DNA of 43,569 nucleotides from a virus, in IMG/VR virus record IMGVR_UViG_3300043673_000017, positions 1 through 43,569 of that record. One strand, written 5' to 3'. Below the pieces are notes generated by a model. That model ran no database searches and was not told the DNA's origin. It saw only the letters and a program-made list of their open reading frames with translations. This document shows, in pieces, positions 1,752 through 39,135 of this stretch (positions are counted from its first letter, which is position 1; the number at the start of each line of letters is the position of its first letter). The position numbers were made by a program, and so were the translations under genes.

Positions 1752-4700
1752 CTAATTAGGCAGTGGTTGGCAGGTTATCTTGCCTCCAAAGGTTGTATCT
1801 GTCGCCTTAATTCTGAAGGCGTTCACGGCGGTTGTTGAGTTAAAGACTCCAGAAGTAAACTCAGGAACTACGCCACCGCCAGCGGTGATATTAGTACCCG
1901 CGGTTCCTTCAACCGTTTTGAAAATTGCGCTTCCGGGTGCATGGAGTGTCACGCGGAAATCCAATGAGCCATTTGAGACAACAGGGTTATTTGAATCGCG
2001 AAGAAAGATTCCTGCTTGGGAAGTTTTCTGCCCCGAAGAACCCGCAGAAGAAGTAGCGAAGCCAAGCGTGTAGGAGTAGCTTGTTCCCGCAACGTAAGTT
2101 GCCCCTCCATCCGTGGACATTTGAATGAAAAATTGATCGCCGCTTGATGACCCAACTAAGTTGCTTCCGCGAATTTCATAATCATTAAATGAGCTGCTTA
2201 TGCAAGACGTGAAATCTAGCTCTGTGGTGGTTCCCGAAGTTGCGGTATGTGATTCTGGGGTGGGATAGCCGCCCCCTGCTGCCTGCCATGTTGCTGCGCT
2301 TGAGCTCGTGGCGGTTGGGACAAAGCCTACAGATGGCGTACCCGTAACTGCAATTCCGTTGATCTTCGCCACAGTTGGATTCGGGTAGGTGCCGCTTAAA
2401 TCTCCGCCAGCTGCGCCCGTTGGTGGGCCGCCGCCACCAGCAATTCCGCAAGCTCCTCCTGCATCTGCCAGTGAGAGCGTTCCAGAGGAAAGGCTGAATT
2501 GAGTACAGTCTCCATTGGTTATTCCCGATGTCGGAATCCAAGCAAGTATGCGATCTGCGCCATTGCCCCAGATATGCCAGTTGGGTGTTGTCGTGGCATA
2601 GCCGAGTTCGCCATTCGCAGCACTCGTATAAGTCGCACCAACCGGCAACTTGAACTGCGTAGCTCCGCTCGCATCGGGAGTGCCTCCGAGCGTTGGCGAA
2701 GTCAGCGTCAATCCGGCAATCGTGGTCGTGGTCGAACCCGATGCAACCGACGTGCTACCAAGGGTAATCGGGAATCCGCTACTCACGCTCAACTGATTAT
2801 TCGTCCCCGCATCCGTAAACGGCACCGAGAGCGTCGTGCCATAGATATTGCTCTGTGCCCATTCATTGTTGGTGCTGGTTGCGTCGAAGGCGAGGCCAAT
2901 GACCCCCGAGGTTCCGTCTACCACGTTATTCTGGAATGCATTCGATCGACATAAAGTGCAATCGAAACCTTTCTGCGTTCCCGTTAAGCCCGTAACCGTA
3001 TTCCCGGTGAGGGAACCTCCCGCCACATCATTTAATTGAAACCCATAGGTTGATCCAACCCCCGGCGTTTTGATCTGCACATTCTTCACAACCGGATATT
3101 GCATATGCGTCAGCAAAACCGAGCCTTGAAACATCTGCATCCCGACCAAGCTGGTATTGATGCCGTGGTCGAGGCTGATCGCCGGATTCTGAAGAGCATC
3201 GCACCAATTCGCACCACCTGTGATAGTGATTTGCAGGTTGCTTGCCGTGGGACCGCCTGAGAGCACAACGCACTGGCCGATATTGTCGAACTTTGGATCG
3301 TTGATGCTGATGTCCTGCATCGCTCCGCTGGCACTCCCGATGCCGATTGAATTGTTCCCGCCTCCTGCTACCTCGAAGTGATCCAAGGTGTAATCGGCGG
3401 AGGGGACTTGGAAATACGCCGCATAGAGAACCAGTCCAGAGCAGCTATTCGCTACGGTATCGTACTTCATCCGGGTGCTCAGACCGTCAGAACCCAAATC
3501 CCATCCGTGAACCGTTCCGCTGGGGCATCCCACTCCAGAGAATCCCCACGACGCTACGCTGTTTGAAAATGCTCCATAGCCAAATGCCGCCGTTCCTTCC
3601 AGACGGAAGGGCCAGATCGAGTCATCCGACCAGACGTTATTCATGATGAATCCGCCCGTATCGACGTTGTTGATGCCGATGGCTCCAGAGGTCGCAGTGA
3701 CAGCACGATTCACGGCAAGATTCGTCATGCCGTTGCCGGTGATCGGCGTCGATAATCCAGATCCGTGGAAGTCCACGATAGTTGCGGTTGCGCTGGACGA
3801 GAACACCATGGGCCAGTTGGTCGCATGGTTCACGGAGGTCTTCAGAGGACACGCGCCCGCAAGCCAGATGCCGTTCGTGGTGATGGCTGGAATGCCTGCT
3901 GCAAATCGATATTGCTTGAAGCAGTCGAAGGTGATCGTTCCGCCGCCTGCTGCAACTGCTGCTGCCAGAGCCGTCGAGAAGCAACTCGTGTTGTCGGTGC
4001 CAGTGTTCGTGCTCAGAACGCCGTCGCCCACGCAGCCATAGTTGTCGATGGGGAAGGTGTTTGCCGGAGTACTGCTGCCTCCAGTGCCGAGACACGCGAA
4101 CGATCCACCATTCGCCGAATACTCAAGACAATGTGCAGTTGAATCGGCATACAGGATGTCATGTCCCGAAGCCGCGCTCGCTGCGGTTCCTTCGGTCGCG
4201 TTAAATGTGCCGCCCTGCCCGCCTGCAACTGCGACGGCAACGGGCTCTGTCGATGTGACTGTGGTGCCGTTATCGCTGAGGGCTGATTGCGCCCCTGTGG
4301 TGGTTGCGTTTGTTGCTTTGCCTATGACGTTGGCCGCTTGCCCTGAGACGGTGCCGGAGCCACCACCACCCGATCCGCACGGCGTTGCAGTCGAACCCAG
4401 CACGCCAGTTGCCCACGTTGCGCAGCCATCCGCAACGCCTGTATTGGTCAGCGAATGACCGGATGCGATGGTCATTCCCAAACTGAAGGTGTGCGCTGCC
4501 GCCCAGATGAAAGCGTGAGACGTGTCTACATCGAGTGTGGTATTCGTAGGAGTCCCACCAACTACAAGCGTGGCTCCGGGGCTGGTGATGGTGTCACCGC
4601 CACCGCCGCCAGAACTCGACAGCGGAGCCCATACGAATGACCCGCCGCCGACGTTATGGGGTTTGCACAAAACCTCGTCGTCAGCAACTCCTGATGCCGT

Positions 4701-6221
4701 GACGCAATCAGTGGTGTTGGTAATCAGGACTGCTGTGCCATAGCTAAGGCCGGGATTGGGTTCGGTGCCGAGAAGATAGCTATTGAAGACTTGCGGAAAC
4801 AGCGGGTCGAGATAGATGGAATTCGTGGTCAGATCAAATCCAAGAGGAGGGCGGACGTAGATCTTATTGGGCGTCGGCACCGCAGAACCGGAGTAGTGAA
4901 TGATCAATCCGACCGAATTGATGTTGGTGGTGGTGTTGATCCGAGTTGCCCCACTAACGCTCATGGAGGCCACTGTGGTTGCGGTGGCTACTTGCGCCCC
5001 GGTGAATCCCGTTGCTCCCGTTGATTGCTGCATAGATGACGACTGGAAGTGTGGAGGATCAAGGGTCGCAGTTCCACTGCTCATTGTTGCCAATGCGTAT
5101 GTAGGGGGAGCCAGCGTGGGGAAACAAAAATTATTCGTATCTACCGCGCTGACGCCTTGGATTGCAAACGCCTGAACATCGATTACATCGGCTGCGGTAA
5201 GGCCAACATCTGCCAGTGAATACTGATCCCACGTTCCGATGTTTGTGTAGGAAAGAGAGCAGATCGATCCCATCGTGATCGTGCCGCTGCCATTCTGTCC
5301 ATTTGCCGAACCGACAATAGATCCCGGCGCAAAATCCCTTCGCGTTATCGTGAATCGATGCGGATAGATGGCGATATAGTTTCCTACCGGGATGGTGACA
5401 AAAGTGGTGATATTGGGATTTGCGTTAGGGACATAGGCGCTCTTCCTCCCCGTCGCGAAGTCGTTCTGCCAAATCACATTGGTAAACCCTGCGGGCGCCA
5501 CGGGAAGAGTCGAGTTGAAATCCACTACTCCCTGATTAACTCCAACTGCGGTGTCTTCCACTTGGAAGGTGGTTGCGGTTGGGGGCGGGATGGTGCAAGT
5601 CCCCCCTAGCGCGCATACCTGCCCGTTGACCGTGGTCTGAGGATGAGTGATTCCCGAATTGTTGAGCGTCCCGGTAACGCCGAATGTCTCGATGCCACCA
5701 GAGGGATTCGAGAACGCGAAATTCAGTCCGTTGAACGGCGCCGGGTTCACATGGTTAAGCAAAGTCTGGCTGAAATTGTTACCGCCATTCGTCTGGATCG
5801 TGGGGCCAACACCCCCGCCTCCACCGCCAACTTGAAGGTCTGTCAAAGTGACCGGAAGCAGGTAGGTCAGAGGTGGAACCCCTCCGCTCATCACCACGTC
5901 GTAGCCTGTGTTTATGGCGGCGTAAAAGAGCCACTGGCCCGGCGCTGCGGTCGAAGGCAGAGAATTATTTGCTGTGAAGGGATTGCCGAGAGGCGTGCCG
6001 CTTGCGTCTTTGAAGATCGTCGCAGGGTTCGTCGTCCCGGTGAGAAATACCGTGACTGTGCAGGAGGGAATTACACCTTGGAGTTTATTGGTGGAGCTGA
6101 GGCCCTGCACTACTGCGGAACGGCCGCCACTCTCGCAGTAACCGTTAAATGCAGCCGTCTGCGCGAATAGCGCAGGCGAGGAGATTACCAGAAATGCGAG
6201 AAAGAGAAGACGCTTCGGCAT
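1752..6221 (-). CDS. Large tail-fibre/tailspike-like beta-helix protein with N-terminal signal peptide
   Basis: This 1,489-aa protein probably starts at ATG 6221, with GAGGA 5 bp upstream; a GTG at 6236 is in frame. Residues 1-21 (MPKRLLFLAFLVISSPALFA) look like a cleavable signal peptide, which is unusual for a virion protein. The N-terminal third is low-complexity, Gly/Thr/Ser-rich. Near residue 720 the motif FPIDNYGCVGDGV opens a pectate-lyase-3-type beta-helix, seen in many phage tailspikes. Near residue 1267, GGDLSGTYPNPTV is a motif common in phage fibres. A beta-rich C-terminal domain ends in CQPLPN. Position at the distal end of the late operon supports host recognition. A secreted host-type protein is the alternative. 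Confidence 0.8.
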   Translation of the reverse strand: MPKRLLFLAFLVISSPALFAQTAAFNGYCESGGRSAVVQGLSSTNKLQGVIPSCTVTVFLTGTTNPATIFKDASGTPLGNPFTANNSLPSTAAPGQWLFYAAINTGYDVVMSGGVPPLTYLLPVTLTDLQVGGGGGGVGPTIQTNGGNNFSQTLLNHVNPAPFNGLNFAFSNPSGGIETFGVTGTLNNSGITHPQTTVNGQVCALGGTCTIPPPTATTFQVEDTAVGVNQGVVDFNSTLPVAPAGFTNVIWQNDFATGRKSAYVPNANPNITTFVTIPVGNYIAIYPHRFTITRRDFAPGSIVGSANGQNGSGTITMGSICSLSYTNIGTWDQYSLADVGLTAADVIDVQAFAIQGVSAVDTNNFCFPTLAPPTYALATMSSGTATLDPPHFQSSSMQQSTGATGFTGAQVATATTVASMSVSGATRINTTTNINSVGLIIHYSGSAVPTPNKIYVRPPLGFDLTTNSIYLDPLFPQVFNSYLLGTEPNPGLSYGTAVLITNTTDCVTASGVADDEVLCKPHNVGGGSFVWAPLSSSGGGGGDTITSPGATLVVGGTPTNTTLDVDTSHAFIWAAAHTFSLGMTIASGHSLTNTGVADGCATWATGVLGSTATPCGSGGGGSGTVSGQAANVIGKATNATTTGAQSALSDNGTTVTSTEPVAVAVAGGQGGTFNATEGTAASAASGHDILYADSTAHCLEYSANGGSFACLGTGGSSTPANTFPIDNYGCVGDGVLSTNTGTDNTSCFSTALAAAVAAGGGTITFDCFKQYRFAAGIPAITTNGIWLAGACPLKTSVNHATNWPMVFSSSATATIVDFHGSGLSTPITGNGMTNLAVNRAVTATSGAIGINNVDTGGFIMNNVWSDDSIWPFRLEGTAAFGYGAFSNSVASWGFSGVGCPSGTVHGWDLGSDGLSTRMKYDTVANSCSGLVLYAAYFQVPSADYTLDHFEVAGGGNNSIGIGSASGAMQDISINDPKFDNIGQCVVLSGGPTASNLQITITGGANWCDALQNPAISLDHGINTSLVGMQMFQGSVLLTHMQYPVVKNVQIKTPGVGSTYGFQLNDVAGGSLTGNTVTGLTGTQKGFDCTLCRSNAFQNNVVDGTSGVIGLAFDATSTNNEWAQSNIYGTTLSVPFTDAGTNNQLSVSSGFPITLGSTSVASGSTTTTIAGLTLTSPTLGGTPDASGATQFKLPVGATYTSAANGELGYATTTPNWHIWGNGADRILAWIPTSGITNGDCTQFSLSSGTLSLADAGGACGIAGGGGPPTGAAGGDLSGTYPNPTVAKINGIAVTGTPSVGFVPTATSSSAATWQAAGGGYPTPESHTATSGTTTELDFTSCISSSFNDYEIRGSNLVGSSSGDQFFIQMSTDGGATYVAGTSYSYTLGFATSSAGSSGQKTSQAGIFLRDSNNPVVSNGSLDFRVTLHAPGSAIFKTVEGTAGTNITAGGGVVPEFTSGVFNSTTAVNAFRIKATDTTFGGKITCQPLPN

Positions 6222-6240
6222 GGAGTCCTCAAACACAGCC

Positions 6241-6277
6241 GAGCCGTCTGCATTCCCTTAAGGCGCTTCGGAATCTC
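6241..6277 (-). repeat. Bipartite repeat element, copy 1 (upstream of the tailspike gene)
   Basis: On the plus strand, GAGCCGTCTGCATTCC and AGGCGCTTCGGAATCTC are separated by 4 bp. The same 16-bp and 17-bp blocks recur at 23451-23493 with a 10-bp spacer. On the minus strand the element lies just upstream of the tailspike start and can pair ATTCC with GGAAT. A promoter, leader or processing signal is possible; function is unknown. Confidence 0.7.
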
Positions 6278-6337
6278 GCTTAGAGTTTACCCTTGGGGTG
6301 CATTTTCCGCTACGTATTTCGTGTAACAGGGTTTAGA

Positions 6338-6937
6338 ATGGACCGCATGAATGAGATTGCGTCAGAGCCCACCGTCGTAGCCGATAAGCCTTCGAAGCCG
6401 AGAAAACGGCGCAAAAAACGCAGCGATAAGGGCAAGCGCAGAGTGTCTGCACGCAGTAATTCCGTGGAGACCGTCGTAGGCGTCACGCTTGCGCATGGGC
6501 AGGAGCCCGTTTTCCGCACAGAGATGCGCCCCAAAGAGCAGCCGTCCGCGCCGCCTATTTCGCCCGCTGGCCCGTCCCCCGCCGTGCTCGAACTCCAGTC
6601 TGATATTGTGGTCCTCGTTCGCCAGCGGTCCGAACTACGCGCGCGCGCATCGGCGGCACAGGCGAAGCTATTTCAGGCGCAAGCCGAAGCGCAGGCCGCG
6701 CAGGGAGATTTGTCGGGCTTGGATCAGGAAGTCCAGTACCGCATGGGGCTGATTGCGCAGTTGGAGAATCGGGCGCCGCAGAGCCCAGTGCTCAACTTCC
6801 CGCAGCCGGGAGCGCTGACGTACACCGGAGATTTGAGCAGCTTCTCCAGCGAGCCTGCTCCGCGTCCAGTTCAGCAGGGCGACCCGAACGATCTCGTAAA
6901 CCGAGGACATGCGGCGATCATGCGTGCGGCGATATAG
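6338..6937 (+). CDS. Hypothetical basic, coiled-coil protein
   Basis: This 199-aa protein is read from ATG 6338 (MDRMNEIASEP); a further in-frame ATG lies three codons on. Residues 20-45 are strongly basic (KPRKRRKKRSDKGKRR), followed by a Pro-rich stretch and a predicted helix or coiled coil rich in Ala, Gln and Arg (about residues 85-145). The C-terminus is Pro-rich. It is the only plus-strand gene within the left-hand structural region and converges on the gene at 6918-7832, overlapping its end by 20 bp. The long clean frame supports coding. I do not recognise the family; the basic segment suggests nucleic-acid binding, which is inference. Confidence 0.6.
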   Translation: MDRMNEIASEPTVVADKPSKPRKRRKKRSDKGKRRVSARSNSVETVVGVTLAHGQEPVFRTEMRPKEQPSAPPISPAGPSPAVLELQSDIVVLVRQRSELRARASAAQAKLFQAQAEAQAAQGDLSGLDQEVQYRMGLIAQLENRAPQSPVLNFPQPGALTYTGDLSSFSSEPAPRPVQQGDPNDLVNRGHAAIMRAAI

Positions 6938-34964: not shown

Positions 34965-35060
34965 TTGTAAAGCTCGTTTGTCTATACAGGCTTGAAGGGT
35001 CGCGCGGTGCGAATGTCTATACATTGTTCGAAATTGACCATCTAACTCTAGGCAAATCTG

Positions 35061-35082
35061 CGGAAGTATGTACTTTACGCAA
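35061..35082 (+). repeat. Left terminal inverted repeat of the transposon
   Basis: Twenty-two bases, perfect inverted copy of 38027-38048. The inner half is TACTTTACGCAA, a motif that also forms both arms of the palindrome in the transposase promoter. The target duplication CAAATCTG precedes it at 35053-35060. Confidence 0.9.
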
Positions 35083-35092
35083 TGATCTATCT

Positions 35093-35344
35093 TTATCGAC
35101 GGTCGTGTTCGACAGCACGCATGAGGGCGTTGTACTTCTCTACATTGACCTTTGTATTGTCATCTTTAGCATCGAGGGTGAGGAAATAGGCGGTCTTCAA
35201 ACCAAATGGGAAGACCACCTTAATATCCGCCGTGAATACGAACGTATAGCTTTTACGTTCGCCCTCTGTGGATGGGCGACTCATCGCACCGACTTGTCTT
35301 ATCCCGAGCTTGGAAAGTTCAGCCCTCAAATCGCCCAGTGTCAT
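35093..35344 (-). CDS. Small cargo protein next to the HicB-like gene, possible toxin partner
   Basis: This 83-aa protein starts 9 bp after the HicB-like stop, so the two are co-transcribed. MTLGDLRAELSKLGIRQVGA begins with a helix that resembles the start of HicA-type proteins, followed by strands (SYTFVFTADIKVVFPF) but without the HicA catalytic His (G-S-H). It ends just before the left transposon end. Either a divergent partner in a two-gene addiction module or an unrelated cargo gene. Confidence 0.55.
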   Translation of the reverse strand: MTLGDLRAELSKLGIRQVGAMSRPSTEGERKSYTFVFTADIKVVFPFGLKTAYFLTLDAKDDNTKVNVEKYNALMRAVEHDRR

Positions 35345-35353
35345 TGTTCGCTT

Positions 35354-35701
35354 TTAAGCAGCAATCGCTAAGCAGTAGGTGAAGTGACATTCCATCACAT
35401 TCACGGGGGCGACTTCGGCTGCTACATCCACAGTCTTAATGATTGGCTCGCCTTGATCAAGTGCTTGATTGAACAGATCCCAATACTCATGCGGTGCGCG
35501 ATGGCAATGCGCGGAAGTATCTGGAACGCCAACCTTTATGCAGAAATACACTACGGCTCGTACAGTGTCATTCAGTTGATTGACAGCGTCATCAACACTG
35601 CTTCCTGTCCCTACTAAATCCAAATCCAAGCAGTGTGCTACGTATTCGCCTTCTACCTGGTGGACGAGGTAATGGAGTTGGCTTGTAAAAGTGAAGTCCA
35701 T
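35354..35701 (-). CDS. HicB-like antitoxin-fold protein (transposon cargo)
   Basis: This 115-aa protein starts at ATG 35701 with GGAGAGG 6 bp upstream, which rules out the longer frame. FTSQLHYLVHQVEGEYVAHC followed by LDLDLVGTGSSVDDAVNQLN matches the HicB partial RNase-H-like fold. The C-terminal part (HRAPHEYWDLFNQALDQGEP) lacks the usual HTH or RHH DNA-binding tail. HicB proteins neutralise HicA mRNA interferases; here the neighbour is not an obvious HicA. Confidence 0.7.
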   Translation of the reverse strand: MDFTFTSQLHYLVHQVEGEYVAHCLDLDLVGTGSSVDDAVNQLNDTVRAVVYFCIKVGVPDTSAHCHRAPHEYWDLFNQALDQGEPIIKTVDVAAEVAPVNVMECHFTYCLAIAA

Positions 35702-35762
35702 GTTTACCTCTCCTCTCCCCGAGAATTCAATCGCGGGTGTTGATGGCCCGTCTGGGCCAAGA

Positions 35763-35800
35763 TGACAATTCGGGGTGCATGTACGGTCAAATACATGCAA
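35763..35800 (-). promoter_or_regulatory. Putative promoter/operator of the HicB-like pair
   Basis: TGCATGTA-N8-TACATGCA (35777-35800) is an inverted repeat with 8-bp perfect arms. Minus-strand TTGACC (35791-35786) lies in its spacer, and TGTCAT follows at a 17-bp distance, a plausible -35/-10 pair 60 bp upstream of the start. Autoregulation by the pair would be typical of antitoxins. Confidence 0.5.
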
Positions 35801-35997
35801 CGAAAACCTTTACGGGGTACGATTTGGAGTAATGGGTTAGGTTGAGAGAAAGGCACACTCTCGCAACCACAATACTCTGAGGGCTATCCACTCTGCAACT
35901 CAAAAATATCCCTCTCGTATCGCACAGTATATCCTGAGTGATTCCAAAAGACCTCACCCAAAGGTGGGATGCGCACGCACACCCCCTAGTTCTGAGA

Positions 35998-36132
35998 TTA
36001 TTTAGGCCACCCACCCGATGGTTTCTTCTTAGACAGGGACCTCTTTACCGCGTCCTGCCACTTGCCCTCAATCTTGAGCGCGTCGGGCTTTGGGCCGGTC
36101 TTTGCGGGTTTCTTCTTGGCAGGTTTACGCAT
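35998..36132 (-). CDS. 44-aa basic protein linked to the transposase
   Basis: MRKPAKKKPAKTGPKPDALK then IEGKWQDAVKRSLSKKKPSG and GWPK. It overlaps the 3' end of the transposase gene by 8 bp, so it is co-transcribed and perhaps coupled. I recall similar short Lys/Pro-rich proteins beside IS1595-type transposases. Function unknown; DNA binding or a transposition accessory role is plausible. Confidence 0.65.
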   Translation of the reverse strand: MRKPAKKKPAKTGPKPDALKIEGKWQDAVKRSLSKKKPSGGWPK

Positions 36133-37087
36133 GGTTTGGGGAGGCCTTATAGGTCAGACGCTTGCCCTCTGCTGATCTTACCGCCAACACCGTGCGCTCG
36201 CCGTCGTTTAGTTTCCGGGCATTCCACATGAAGTCGAACTGCCAGAGATAACGGTGCAAGTATTCCTTGCTCACATTGTGATAGACGCCAATGATGCCGC
36301 GCTTCACAAGGGCGAAGGAGCTTTCAATCGTGTTGGTGTGGACGTCGCCACGGGCGTACTGGCGCATGCTGTGACGAATCCGAGAGTGTCCACCCTCAAA
36401 CGATGGGCCGATGCCCTTGTAGCCCACGTAATCGTCCGTCATGATCCTCGAACGGGGGTCAACAACCCTCTTGATTTCGTCTTTGAGGGTCTTGCCTGTT
36501 ACGTCAGCGATGATCCGGCGGCGAATTTCTCCATCGCGCTGCACCGCGCCAAACACAATGGTTTTTCTATCTGCAGTCTTGCGATTATCGATCCACTTGT
36601 TGCGCGGTTTGCCTCCGACGAAGGTTTCATCGCATTCCACAATTCCGGTCAGTGGCGCGGCTGTTGGAAGGTCTGGAGCCATCGCAAATCGAATGCGGTT
36701 CATCAGGAACAGTGCTGACTTATAGCTGATCTGGCAGTGCCTCTTGATCTCCAGTGCCGATACACCCTTCTTGGATGTGGCCCCGCGCCAGAACGCATAC
36801 GCCCAATGCTTCATCTGGATTCTGGATTCTTCGTACACTGTGCCGATGCGGACCGTGTACTGCTCTTTGCAATCCCGGCAGCGCCAGAGGAAACGCTTGT
36901 TGCGCTCTCCGGTCTTCGCATCGGTCATCTTGTAGACTTCAACACTCCCGCACTTCACACAGCACGGATTCGCACCCCAACGCTGTCTTTCAAAGAATTC
37001 GACCGCAGCAAGCTCATCGGAACAGGCCAATGGAATCTCTGCAATCGTATCTGATTTTGAGAGGTTGTGAGCATCGCGTTTCTTCAT
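36125..37087 (-). CDS. IS1595-family (ISXO2-like) DDE transposase
   Basis: The 320-aa protein has an N-terminal zinc ribbon (CCVKC near residue 43; CRDC near 71) and an RNase-H-like catalytic domain. ECDETFVGG (near residue 149), MTDDYVGYKG (near 217) and HTNTIESSFA (near 253) give the D-D-E residues. It would cut at the terminal repeats at 35061 and 38048. There is no clear ribosome site at ATG 37087; the predicted -10 is about 12 bp upstream, so the mRNA may be nearly leaderless. The frame is intact, so the element may be active. Confidence 0.9.
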   Translation of the reverse strand: MKKRDAHNLSKSDTIAEIPLACSDELAAVEFFERQRWGANPCCVKCGSVEVYKMTDAKTGERNKRFLWRCRDCKEQYTVRIGTVYEESRIQMKHWAYAFWRGATSKKGVSALEIKRHCQISYKSALFLMNRIRFAMAPDLPTAAPLTGIVECDETFVGGKPRNKWIDNRKTADRKTIVFGAVQRDGEIRRRIIADVTGKTLKDEIKRVVDPRSRIMTDDYVGYKGIGPSFEGGHSRIRHSMRQYARGDVHTNTIESSFALVKRGIIGVYHNVSKEYLHRYLWQFDFMWNARKLNDGERTVLAVRSAEGKRLTYKASPNHA

Positions 37088-37098
37088 GATTAAAACTT

Positions 37099-37129
37099 TA
37101 TACTTAGCGCAATGGTTGCGTCAAGTAAA
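37099..37129 (-). promoter_or_regulatory. Transposase promoter overlapping a palindrome made of terminal-repeat motifs
   Basis: On the minus strand TTGACG (-35) and TATAAA (-10) are 16 bp apart. They overlap a 27-bp near-palindrome (37103-37129) whose arms read TACTTAGCGCAA and, reversed, TACTTGACGCAA. The terminal repeats contain TACTTTACGCAA, so all four sites share TACTT-NN-CGCAA. The transposase probably binds here and represses itself. Confidence 0.7.
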
Positions 37130-37217
37130 ATGTTTGACAATTGTTATCGGGGGTGTTCCCGTCACGGTCAATCACCTTGACAGAGGCATAGAGACGAGCG
37201 ACCATATTGAAAGGATG

Positions 37218-37306
37218 TGGTGCGGTAGACGGGATTCGAACCCGCACGGAGTGTACGCTCCAACAGCTCCCAAGGCTGTCGCGGCTGCCAATTTCGCCAC
37301 TACCGC
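37218..37306 (-). tRNA. tRNA with leucine-type body and UGG (proline) anticodon
   Basis: The 89-nt gene folds perfectly: acceptor GCGGTAG/CTACCGC, D arm GCG/CGC with AATTGGCAG loop, anticodon stem ACAGC/GCTGT, loop CTTGGGA, variable arm T-GGAG-CGTACA-CTCC-GT, T arm GCGGG/CCCGT with TTCGAAT, then A73 and an encoded CCA. The long variable arm, A73 and D-loop align position by position with bacterial tRNA-Leu, while the loop is typical of tRNA-Pro(UGG). If LeuRS charges it, it would insert Leu at CCA/CCG codons. It is inside the transposon. tRNAscan may label it Pro or undetermined. Confidence 0.85.
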
Positions 37307-37314
37307 ATTGATAG

Positions 37315-37357
37315 GCGGTCAGCGTTTCTTTCCCTCCTAAGGACAGACGCTGACCGC
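37315..37357. other. Long hairpin between the tRNA and the winged-helix gene
   Basis: GCGGTCAGCGT (37315-37325) pairs perfectly with ACGCTGACCGC (37347-37357). Its loop holds TCCCTCCTAAGGA (37331-37343), identical to the ribosome-site region of the neighbouring gene (37928-37940). No U-run follows on the minus strand, so it is not a classical terminator there; on the plus strand a U-rich tract follows. Confidence 0.6.
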
Positions 37358-37365
37358 TTTCCTAT

Positions 37366-37920
37366 TTATTGAATCGTGGCAGTTTCCTCCTTTACCTGTT
37401 GAGGAATTGTGCGGAATGCATATTTCCCGCGACGCACACAAAGCTCTTCGCGATCCGTGAGGCGCTTCAGCACGCTGTACAAATACGCGCGGTATTTGAA
37501 CTGTGTGCGAACCTGATTCCAGATTTCCGTGGGGGTCAGCCCATGCGGATTCTGGCGCAATAAATCGCGGACGATATCAGTTTTGCTTTTCTGTTCTCCG
37601 ACTTGGATCGGGTCTGCCTGTACCTCAGGTACCGTCAACGGAGTGGCGATTTGTGTATTGGGAAGAGGGAGCTGCGCCTGTTCGGCGGTCTGTTTGCGTG
37701 CTGTCTCCTCGGCCATGATCGCGGCGTAAGCAGTGTTCCACCCGTGGAATTGTTGCTGAGCAATTACAAATGCCTGCTGAGCCTTTTGGAAGTTTGCCTG
37801 CGCCGTCGCTTGAGCAGTTTGAGCGGCCTGAAATGCCTGCTGAGTTTCTTGCAAGTTGACTTGGGCGTCGTGGTGCCGAATGCGCAATTCTTCCAGCAAC
37901 GCGGACTGATCCTTTGCCAA
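37366..37920 (-). CDS. Coiled-coil protein with C-terminal winged helix (transposon cargo)
   Basis: This 184-aa protein is best started at TTG 37920, which has a perfect AGGAGG 10 bp upstream; ATGs further up have none. Residues 15-85 form a long Gln/Ala-rich coiled coil (ETQQAFQAAQTAQATAQANF). The C-terminal 65 residues form a winged-helix-like domain: TDIVRDLLRQNPHGLTPTEI then LYSVLKRLTDREELCVRRGK. It may bind DNA as a dimer or bridge; target unknown. It lies next to the tRNA and right transposon end. Confidence 0.7.
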   Translation of the reverse strand: MAKDQSALLEELRIRHHDAQVNLQETQQAFQAAQTAQATAQANFQKAQQAFVIAQQQFHGWNTAYAAIMAEETARKQTAEQAQLPLPNTQIATPLTVPEVQADPIQVGEQKSKTDIVRDLLRQNPHGLTPTEIWNQVRTQFKYRAYLYSVLKRLTDREELCVRRGKYAFRTIPQQVKEETATIQ

Positions 37921-38026
37921 TTGGTAATCCCTCCTAAGGATTGGACCAATGGTAGCGCATCGCATTCCTTTCTGTCTACTCACCTACCTTTTTCATGTGC
38001 GCATGTGACTATGTGACTATGCTCGG

Positions 38027-38048
38027 TTGCGTAAAGTACATACTTCCG
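38027..38048 (-). repeat. Right terminal inverted repeat of the transposon
   Basis: Perfect inverted copy of 35061-35082 (22 bp), followed by the target duplication CAAATCTG at 38049-38056. It lies 37 bp before the TTG of the Ig-like gene, so it may alter that gene's expression. Confidence 0.9.
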
Positions 38049-38084
38049 CAAATCTGCGCTACTATCGGGATTGGGAGAAGACAA

Positions 38085-39040: not shown

Positions 39041-39135
39041 GGGCGAGTAGTGTCAATGGCAGCATGCGGGCCTGCAATTTGAGAGCGGTTCCGGGAAGCC
39101 CTGAGGTGTGGGTTCGAATCCCATCTCGTCCACCA
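39041..39135 (+). tRNA. Non-canonical tRNA-like gene with a 26-nt anticodon loop
   Basis: Acceptor GGGCGAG/CTCGTCC (pair 3-70 is G-U), D arm with TGGC, T arm GTGGG/CCCAT with TTCGAAT loop, A73 and encoded CCA are all regular. Between them the anticodon stem GGGC/GCCC (4 bp) closes a 26-nt loop instead of 7, followed by a normal 5-nt variable loop. G3-U70 is the alanine identity signal. It is followed by a terminator. It may be a decoy, a degenerate tRNA, or one with a 19-nt insertion; no anticodon can be assigned safely. Confidence 0.6.

Follow-up and report, generated by a model that had tools for sequence, protein, structure and literature searches.

The window analysed here is the whole 43,569-nucleotide stretch of the virus record IMGVR_UViG_3300043673_000017, a 43.6-kb viral contig with a terminase gene, and it contains a tRNA gene that is the cargo of an IS1595-family transposon and not a phage gene. 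Our results suggest that this tRNA, probably charged with leucine, rereads one sense codon, CCA, in the transposase of its own element and may thereby couple the activity of the transposase to the element, a reading to which we give a probability of about 0.68. The features on which it rests are the following:

37218..37306, minus strand: class II leucine-type tRNA gene, anticodon UGG, CCA end encoded (ARAGORN; Rfam; family covariance model R1)
35061..38048, no strand: entire IS1595-family transposon of 2988 bp (terminal inverted repeats CGGAAGTATGTACTTTACGCAA matching at 22/22 positions, identical 8-bp target duplications)
36125..37087, minus strand: IS1595 transposase, 320 amino acids (Pfam PF12762, DDE, E 6.7e-36; PF12760, zinc ribbon, E 1.3e-10)

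ARAGORN calls the tRNA at exactly these positions, as tRNA-Pro(tgg), and the gene scores 53.9 bits with the Rfam tRNA model (E 5.8e-9) and 93.4 bits with R1, of which it is itself a training sequence. It parses as GCGGTAG-TG-GCG-AAATTGGCAGC-CGC-G-ACAGC-CTTGGGA-GCTGT-T-GGAG-CGTACA-CTCC-GT-GCGGG-TTCGAAT-CCCGT-CTACCGC-A-CCA, with all stems paired (acceptor 7 bp, D 3 bp, anticodon 5 bp, variable arm 4 bp, T 5 bp), and its anticodon loop, CTTGGGA, has U33 followed by the anticodon U34-G35-G36 at 37270-37272. The body carries the marks of bacterial tRNA-Leu (U8, A14, A15:U48, A73 and a long class II variable arm), and its D arm is identical to that of the ordinary tRNA-Leu (TAG, GAG, CAG) of the Acidobacteria metagenome-assembled genomes (MAGs) that carry relatives of the element. 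At the positions where tRNA-Pro has C1:G72 and G15:C48, it has G1:C72 and A15:U48. These observations confirm an intact, complete leucine-type class II tRNA with a UGG anticodon. An earlier note, made from the sequence alone, had described just such a chimera and placed it on a transposon, and both points are borne out, the second by the 22-bp ends, the 8-bp target duplication and the IS1595 transposase. We found no other fold with a leucine anticodon at 34-36, and a private mutation in a decayed gene is ruled out by homologues that share the UGG loop and whose stems carry compensatory changes.

The note had seen a single case and missed a recurrent family with several anticodons. We searched first with a DNA pattern in which a UGG loop follows a leucine D arm, and found homologues of the same body and anticodon in viruses and bacteria. 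Against circularity, a second search started from the transposase alone, and tRNAs were then sought with ARAGORN, Rfam and the covariance model; it returned many tRNA-bearing relatives in Acidobacteriota, Planctomycetota, Gammaproteobacteria and viruses. Many of the closer transposase relatives have a class II tRNA, and the more distant IS1595 relatives are mostly without one. Two loci (L408, UGG; L413, UGC) were first scored as lacking a tRNA that was then found further away, so others may remain among them, and many of the sequences are metagenome assemblies. Among the pattern-search loci, IS1595 transposases were confined to those with such a tRNA, the single exception being an unrelated locus (30% identity), and none occurred in the control loci (UCG/UUG or other anticodon patterns).

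The tRNAs of this family are maintained genes, as shown by near-perfect covariation in their stems: in an alignment of 28 genes, 99.4% of stem cells are paired (about 40% in slid controls), 175 cells have double changes, and both sides have changed in 21 of 23 pairs. The elbow pair 18:55 also covaries in 47 aligned tRNAs (A18:G55 in 7/7, G18:U55 in 38/38, G18:C55 in two), a pattern that would hardly be expected unless the tRNA folds and is used. The anticodons of these 47 are UGG (39), UGC (4), AGG, GGG, UUA and UUC (one each), and never that of leucine. We therefore consider it very improbable that the gene has a non-translational role, as regulatory RNA, processing signal or attachment site, or is a captured tRNA gene that is simply carried along. 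Mobile elements do often target tRNA genes, and the position and strand of the tRNA relative to the transposase vary between elements, but neither accounts for a fold maintained by double changes, for invariant non-leucine anticodons, or for a codon choice that tracks the anticodon.

That codon choice was studied in 161 aligned transposases. In elements with a UGG tRNA, CCA makes up 81 of 92 proline codons at positions in the linkers between domains and 9 of 155 at conserved prolines. By column, it accounts for 22/23, 13/14, 11/15, 7/8, 7/7 and 17/20 at a few linker columns and for 2/25, 1/18, 3/25, 0/12, 2/28 and 1/24 at conserved proline columns. Within-gene permutation gives this partition a z of 14.1, against at most 5.3 for the other 31 fourfold codons in the same genes, and a weak 2.4 for CCA in genes without the tRNA. 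When columns are defined solely by the frequency of proline in tRNA-less homologues, CCA occupies 110/282 at rarely-proline columns and 6/77 at mostly-proline columns (p 3.6e-8). CCA is also more abundant in UGG elements than in those without tRNA, both as a share of proline codons (32% vs 14%) and per transposase gene (3.7 vs 1.5); in the window transposase it is 6 of 9 proline codons. Since CCA is shut out of conserved proline sites, it is not reliably proline in these elements, and since CCG is used freely at the same sites, CCG stays proline. The earlier note had proposed leucine at both CCA and CCG: the transposase's own codon choice supports a non-proline reading of the former, and there is no sign that the latter is reread.

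The partition changes with the anticodon. In the four nonredundant genes of UGC elements, GCA occupies 25/64 at weakly alanine columns and 2/33 at alanine columns (p 6e-4), and the same test gives p 0.64 in UGG genes and 0.24 in tRNA-less genes. Unlike UGG elements, UGC and UUA elements place CCA at structural proline sites (e.g. 2/6, 2/5, 3/6, 2/5). The contrast also holds between sister genes with and without the tRNA: CCA is 3/3 in L352 (UGG) and 0/6 in L351 and L353 together (no tRNA), 3/4 in L388 and 0/3 in L385, and 4/4 in L420 and 0/2 in L422, the close tRNA-less sisters having CCG or CCC where tRNA-bearing elements have CCA. Thus, by the partition tests for CCA and GCA, the elements show what is expected of self-recoding, a tRNA together with a matching anomalous codon use in their own genes. 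A general favour for A-ending codons in linkers was rejected, other fourfold codons giving 14.5% vs 13.6%. In tRNA-less transposases, the arginine codon CGG is also strongly partitioned between columns (z 13.5).

Several features suggest which amino acid is involved. Escherichia coli leucyl-tRNA synthetase (LeuRS) recognises A73 and the tRNA core, not the anticodon. The family keeps such features (A73 and U48 in 46/47 each) and has G3:U70 in 0/47, so the host LeuRS most probably leucylates the window tRNA. Its UGG anticodon would read CCA, as base pairing and the codon data indicate, in competition with the host tRNA-Pro(UGG), so that CCA in the transposase would be leucine or a mixture of proline and leucine, CCG, CCC and CCU presumably remaining proline. 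Statistically, the transposase gene has adapted, with CCA held at a few inter-domain positions and excluded from conserved prolines, and elements with another anticodon follow the same rule for another codon, as the four UGC genes show for GCA. Our best guess is that the arrangement ties the composition of the transposase, and hence its activity, to the element's own tRNA.

Alternatively, prolyl-tRNA synthetase (ProRS) might charge the tRNA with proline. The gene would then simply add, with an unusual class II body, to the pool of tRNA-Pro that reads CCA, and the CCA codons of the transposase would exploit this supply. ProRS determinants include G35, G36 and A73, which the tRNA has, and both the excess of CCA in UGG elements and the proline codons (CCG, CCC) of close tRNA-less relatives at the same linker positions fit this idea. 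Yet it leaves unexplained the exclusion of CCA from conserved prolines, the ends and core have G1:C72 (in 37/47) and A15:U48 in place of the proline-type C1:G72 and G15:C48, and the UGC tRNAs lack the pair G3:U70 recognised by AlaRS although GCA behaves alike. Furthermore, class II UUG tRNAs of the control phage loci do carry the U1:A72 and G73 expected of tRNA-Gln, which implies that keeping leucine-type ends on the element tRNAs is not trivial. Charging with proline is thus improbable. The same control loci, which lack the IS1595 transposase and whose class II UUG tRNAs have these glutamine-type ends, led us to reject UGG as a common and unremarkable error in the anticodon of phage tRNA-Leu. 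Class II UUG tRNAs with glutamine-type ends were seen in phage loci L163, L179, L155, L196 and L211.

Even less probable is an effect of the tRNA on the host or the phage, by general mistranslation, by a toxin-like or stress effect, or by replacing tRNAs cut by defence systems, the transposase being merely robust to it. In bacteria, tRNAs that mistranslate can be either toxic or of benefit (PMC10365949), and robustness does predict that CCA is avoided at conserved prolines. However, it also predicts fewer CCA codons, when they are in fact more numerous and nearly fixed at linker sites.

Other results weigh against the favoured reading. Residues homologous to the CCA sites are mainly proline, alanine or polar, not leucine, with proline still scoring best, so homology by itself does not identify the amino acid, and the simple idea that CCA is leucine by homology is not supported. 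The leucine identity put forward by the earlier note is thus favoured by the identity elements and finds no specific echo at homologous positions. Leucine is nevertheless less disfavoured at the reread codons than at their synonyms (log-odds per site -0.89 vs -2.10 for CCA vs CCB; also -0.71 vs -1.86). Four elements in which no tRNA was detected (L273, L276, L386 and L361) still have CCA at linker sites; they may be recent losses of the tRNA. That the linker sites favour CCA so strongly, beyond its avoidance elsewhere, is unexplained. Finally, the genes share ancestry, for which the permutation test corrects incompletely, and the tolerant columns were picked after the codons had been seen; the test on independently defined columns is weaker, but still significant.

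The element itself has all the marks of the IS1595 family: a transposase with DDE and zinc-ribbon domains, inverted ends and an 8-bp target duplication. Residues D153, D218 and E255 of the transposase are invariant across nine homologues. The remaining features of the element are:

35061..35082, plus strand: left terminal inverted repeat (22/22 match)
38027..38048, minus strand: right terminal inverted repeat (22/22 match)
35053..35060, no strand: left copy of the target-site duplication CAAATCTG (identical 8-bp copies)
38049..38056, no strand: right copy of the target-site duplication CAAATCTG (identical 8-bp copies)
37366..37983, minus strand: cargo open reading frame (ORF), 205 amino acids (conserved among relatives in a stretch at its C-terminus; similarly placed in L035 and L048)

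The transposase lies on the strand of the tRNA and downstream of it, and the 205-amino-acid ORF, winged-helix-like by eye and without a Pfam family match, lies upstream. The order ORF-tRNA-transposase recurs in two Acidobacteria MAG contigs, L035 and L048, with target duplications of their own (TATTAGAA and TTATTTAA), and L047 holds a partial copy. We conclude from the occurrence of the same module at other target sites in these MAGs that the element is a recent guest of the phage, whose genome is of a soil type. Eight phage records sharing the terminase lack such a tRNA, and the joined flanks of the element (the empty site) matched none of them. Recoding of the phage by the tRNA was rejected, because the gene lies inside a transposon with target duplications, the phage genes use CCA normally (63/470 proline codons) and the eight records lack the tRNA. 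Outside the transposon, at 39041-39135 (plus strand), there is a second tRNA-like gene, missed by ARAGORN (Rfam 41.6 bits), with a class I body, G3:U70 and A73 (alanine-type), and an apparent cysteine-like loop CTGCAAT, after which the anticodon arm has some 19 additional bases.

Such elements seem to be sparse, since an exact-pattern search of 396 Acidobacteriota genomes gave only the known case. Many other genome hits of the pattern were dismissed as group I introns of tRNA-Leu(UAA) or as chance. A plasmid search gave one distant transposase match (40% identity), and a transposase search of named phages gave none. Seven UGG or GGG tRNAs (L059, L067, L003, L090, L094, L105 and L106) have no IS1595 transposase in the retrieved DNA. 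Two of these loci (L059 2177-5995 and L067 4011-5138) show a second type of transposon, with ends GGTAGT..GTCAnTTTGAAA and a leucine-type GGG or UGG tRNA; L059 has an IS1-type transposase and the anticodon GGG.

The relatives include further unusual tRNAs. Four (L271, L286, L287 and L409; anticodons AGG or UGG) have C33 instead of the near-universal U33. A second small, unusual tRNA-like gene adjoins the class II tRNA in L350 (2651-2726), L389 (1138-1205) and L417 (2676-2748), all on the minus strand, the first with seemingly an AGC anticodon and C33. At L417 2750-2836 (minus strand), in the L443 element (3240-6597), a leucine-type tRNA has UUA, the anticodon of an ochre suppressor; TAA ends both the transposase and a cargo ORF of this element, and a frame of about 50 amino acids is open past the transposase stop. 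Near distant IS1595 transposases are a leucine-type tRNA with the glutamate anticodon UUC (L315 4141-4268, plus strand) and, at L364 969-1156 (minus strand), a tRNA-Sec-like UUA gene with a class II UAU gene, which resemble published allo-tRNAs. In phage tRNA clusters, L061 (7337-7419, minus strand) and L081 have a class II tRNA with the histidine anticodon GTG and G-1:C73.

Among known systems, the nearest in spirit are the allo-tRNAs of soil bacteria, including Acidobacteria, whose identity is independent of many anticodons (Mukai et al. 2017, reviewed in PMC7609411); an allo-tRNA(UAU) pseudogene overlaps a transposon ORF, and a link with transposable elements was suggested (PMC7609411). The likeness lies in the hosts, in the decoupling of identity from anticodon and in the association with transposons. 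However, allo-tRNAs have 8/4 or 9/3 acceptor domains and serine or alanine identity, whereas the tRNAs of our elements are leucine-type with a 7-bp acceptor and a 5-bp T stem (7/5), and are intact within complete elements with matching codon adaptation of the transposase. The tRNA-ProX of Streptomyces and Kitasatospora, with its dedicated synthetase ProRSx, has a proline body, an alanine, asparagine or threonine anticodon and A33 (PMC11415595, PMC10365949). It too is a natural bacterial tRNA with mismatched body and anticodon, and it mistranslates a sense codon, but ours is the reverse chimera, leucine-type, mostly with U33 (as in the window), and without a synthetase ORF within the element. 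The earlier note named UGG tRNAs with alanine identity as a precedent; we did not find it, the published bacterial dual-identity tRNAs consulted here being these proline bodies. The nearest functional analogue is found in phages that carry a suppressor tRNA and use it to recode a stop codon within their genes (e.g. PMC10879173), where a mobile element's tRNA also alters the reading of its own genes; here the codons are mainly sense codons (CCA, GCA), the element is a transposon, and ambiguity is more probable than full reassignment. Finally, the elements resemble IS1595-family elements in transposase domains, terminal repeats, 8-bp target duplication and passenger genes, and differ from those described in that the passenger is a tRNA. 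We found no report of tRNA cargo in IS1595 elements, or of sense-codon rereading by transposons, in the open-access papers searched.

On balance, with somewhat less confidence than for the single element, we favour a widespread class of bacterial transposons whose private tRNA reassigns or blurs one codon in their own transposase, either a sense codon (CCA, GCA, perhaps others) or a stop codon. Each element may thus control the composition and activity of this protein by its own code. If so, small transposons crossing phyla would bring their own device for rereading sense codons, a new type of control of transposition, and would provide a natural, testable case of local change of the genetic code within standard-code cells. 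Anticodon-based annotation would mask such genes as 'tRNA-Pro'. The switch of anticodon among related elements (UGG, UGC, AGG, UUA) would then be a natural experiment on the joint evolution of codon meaning and codon use.
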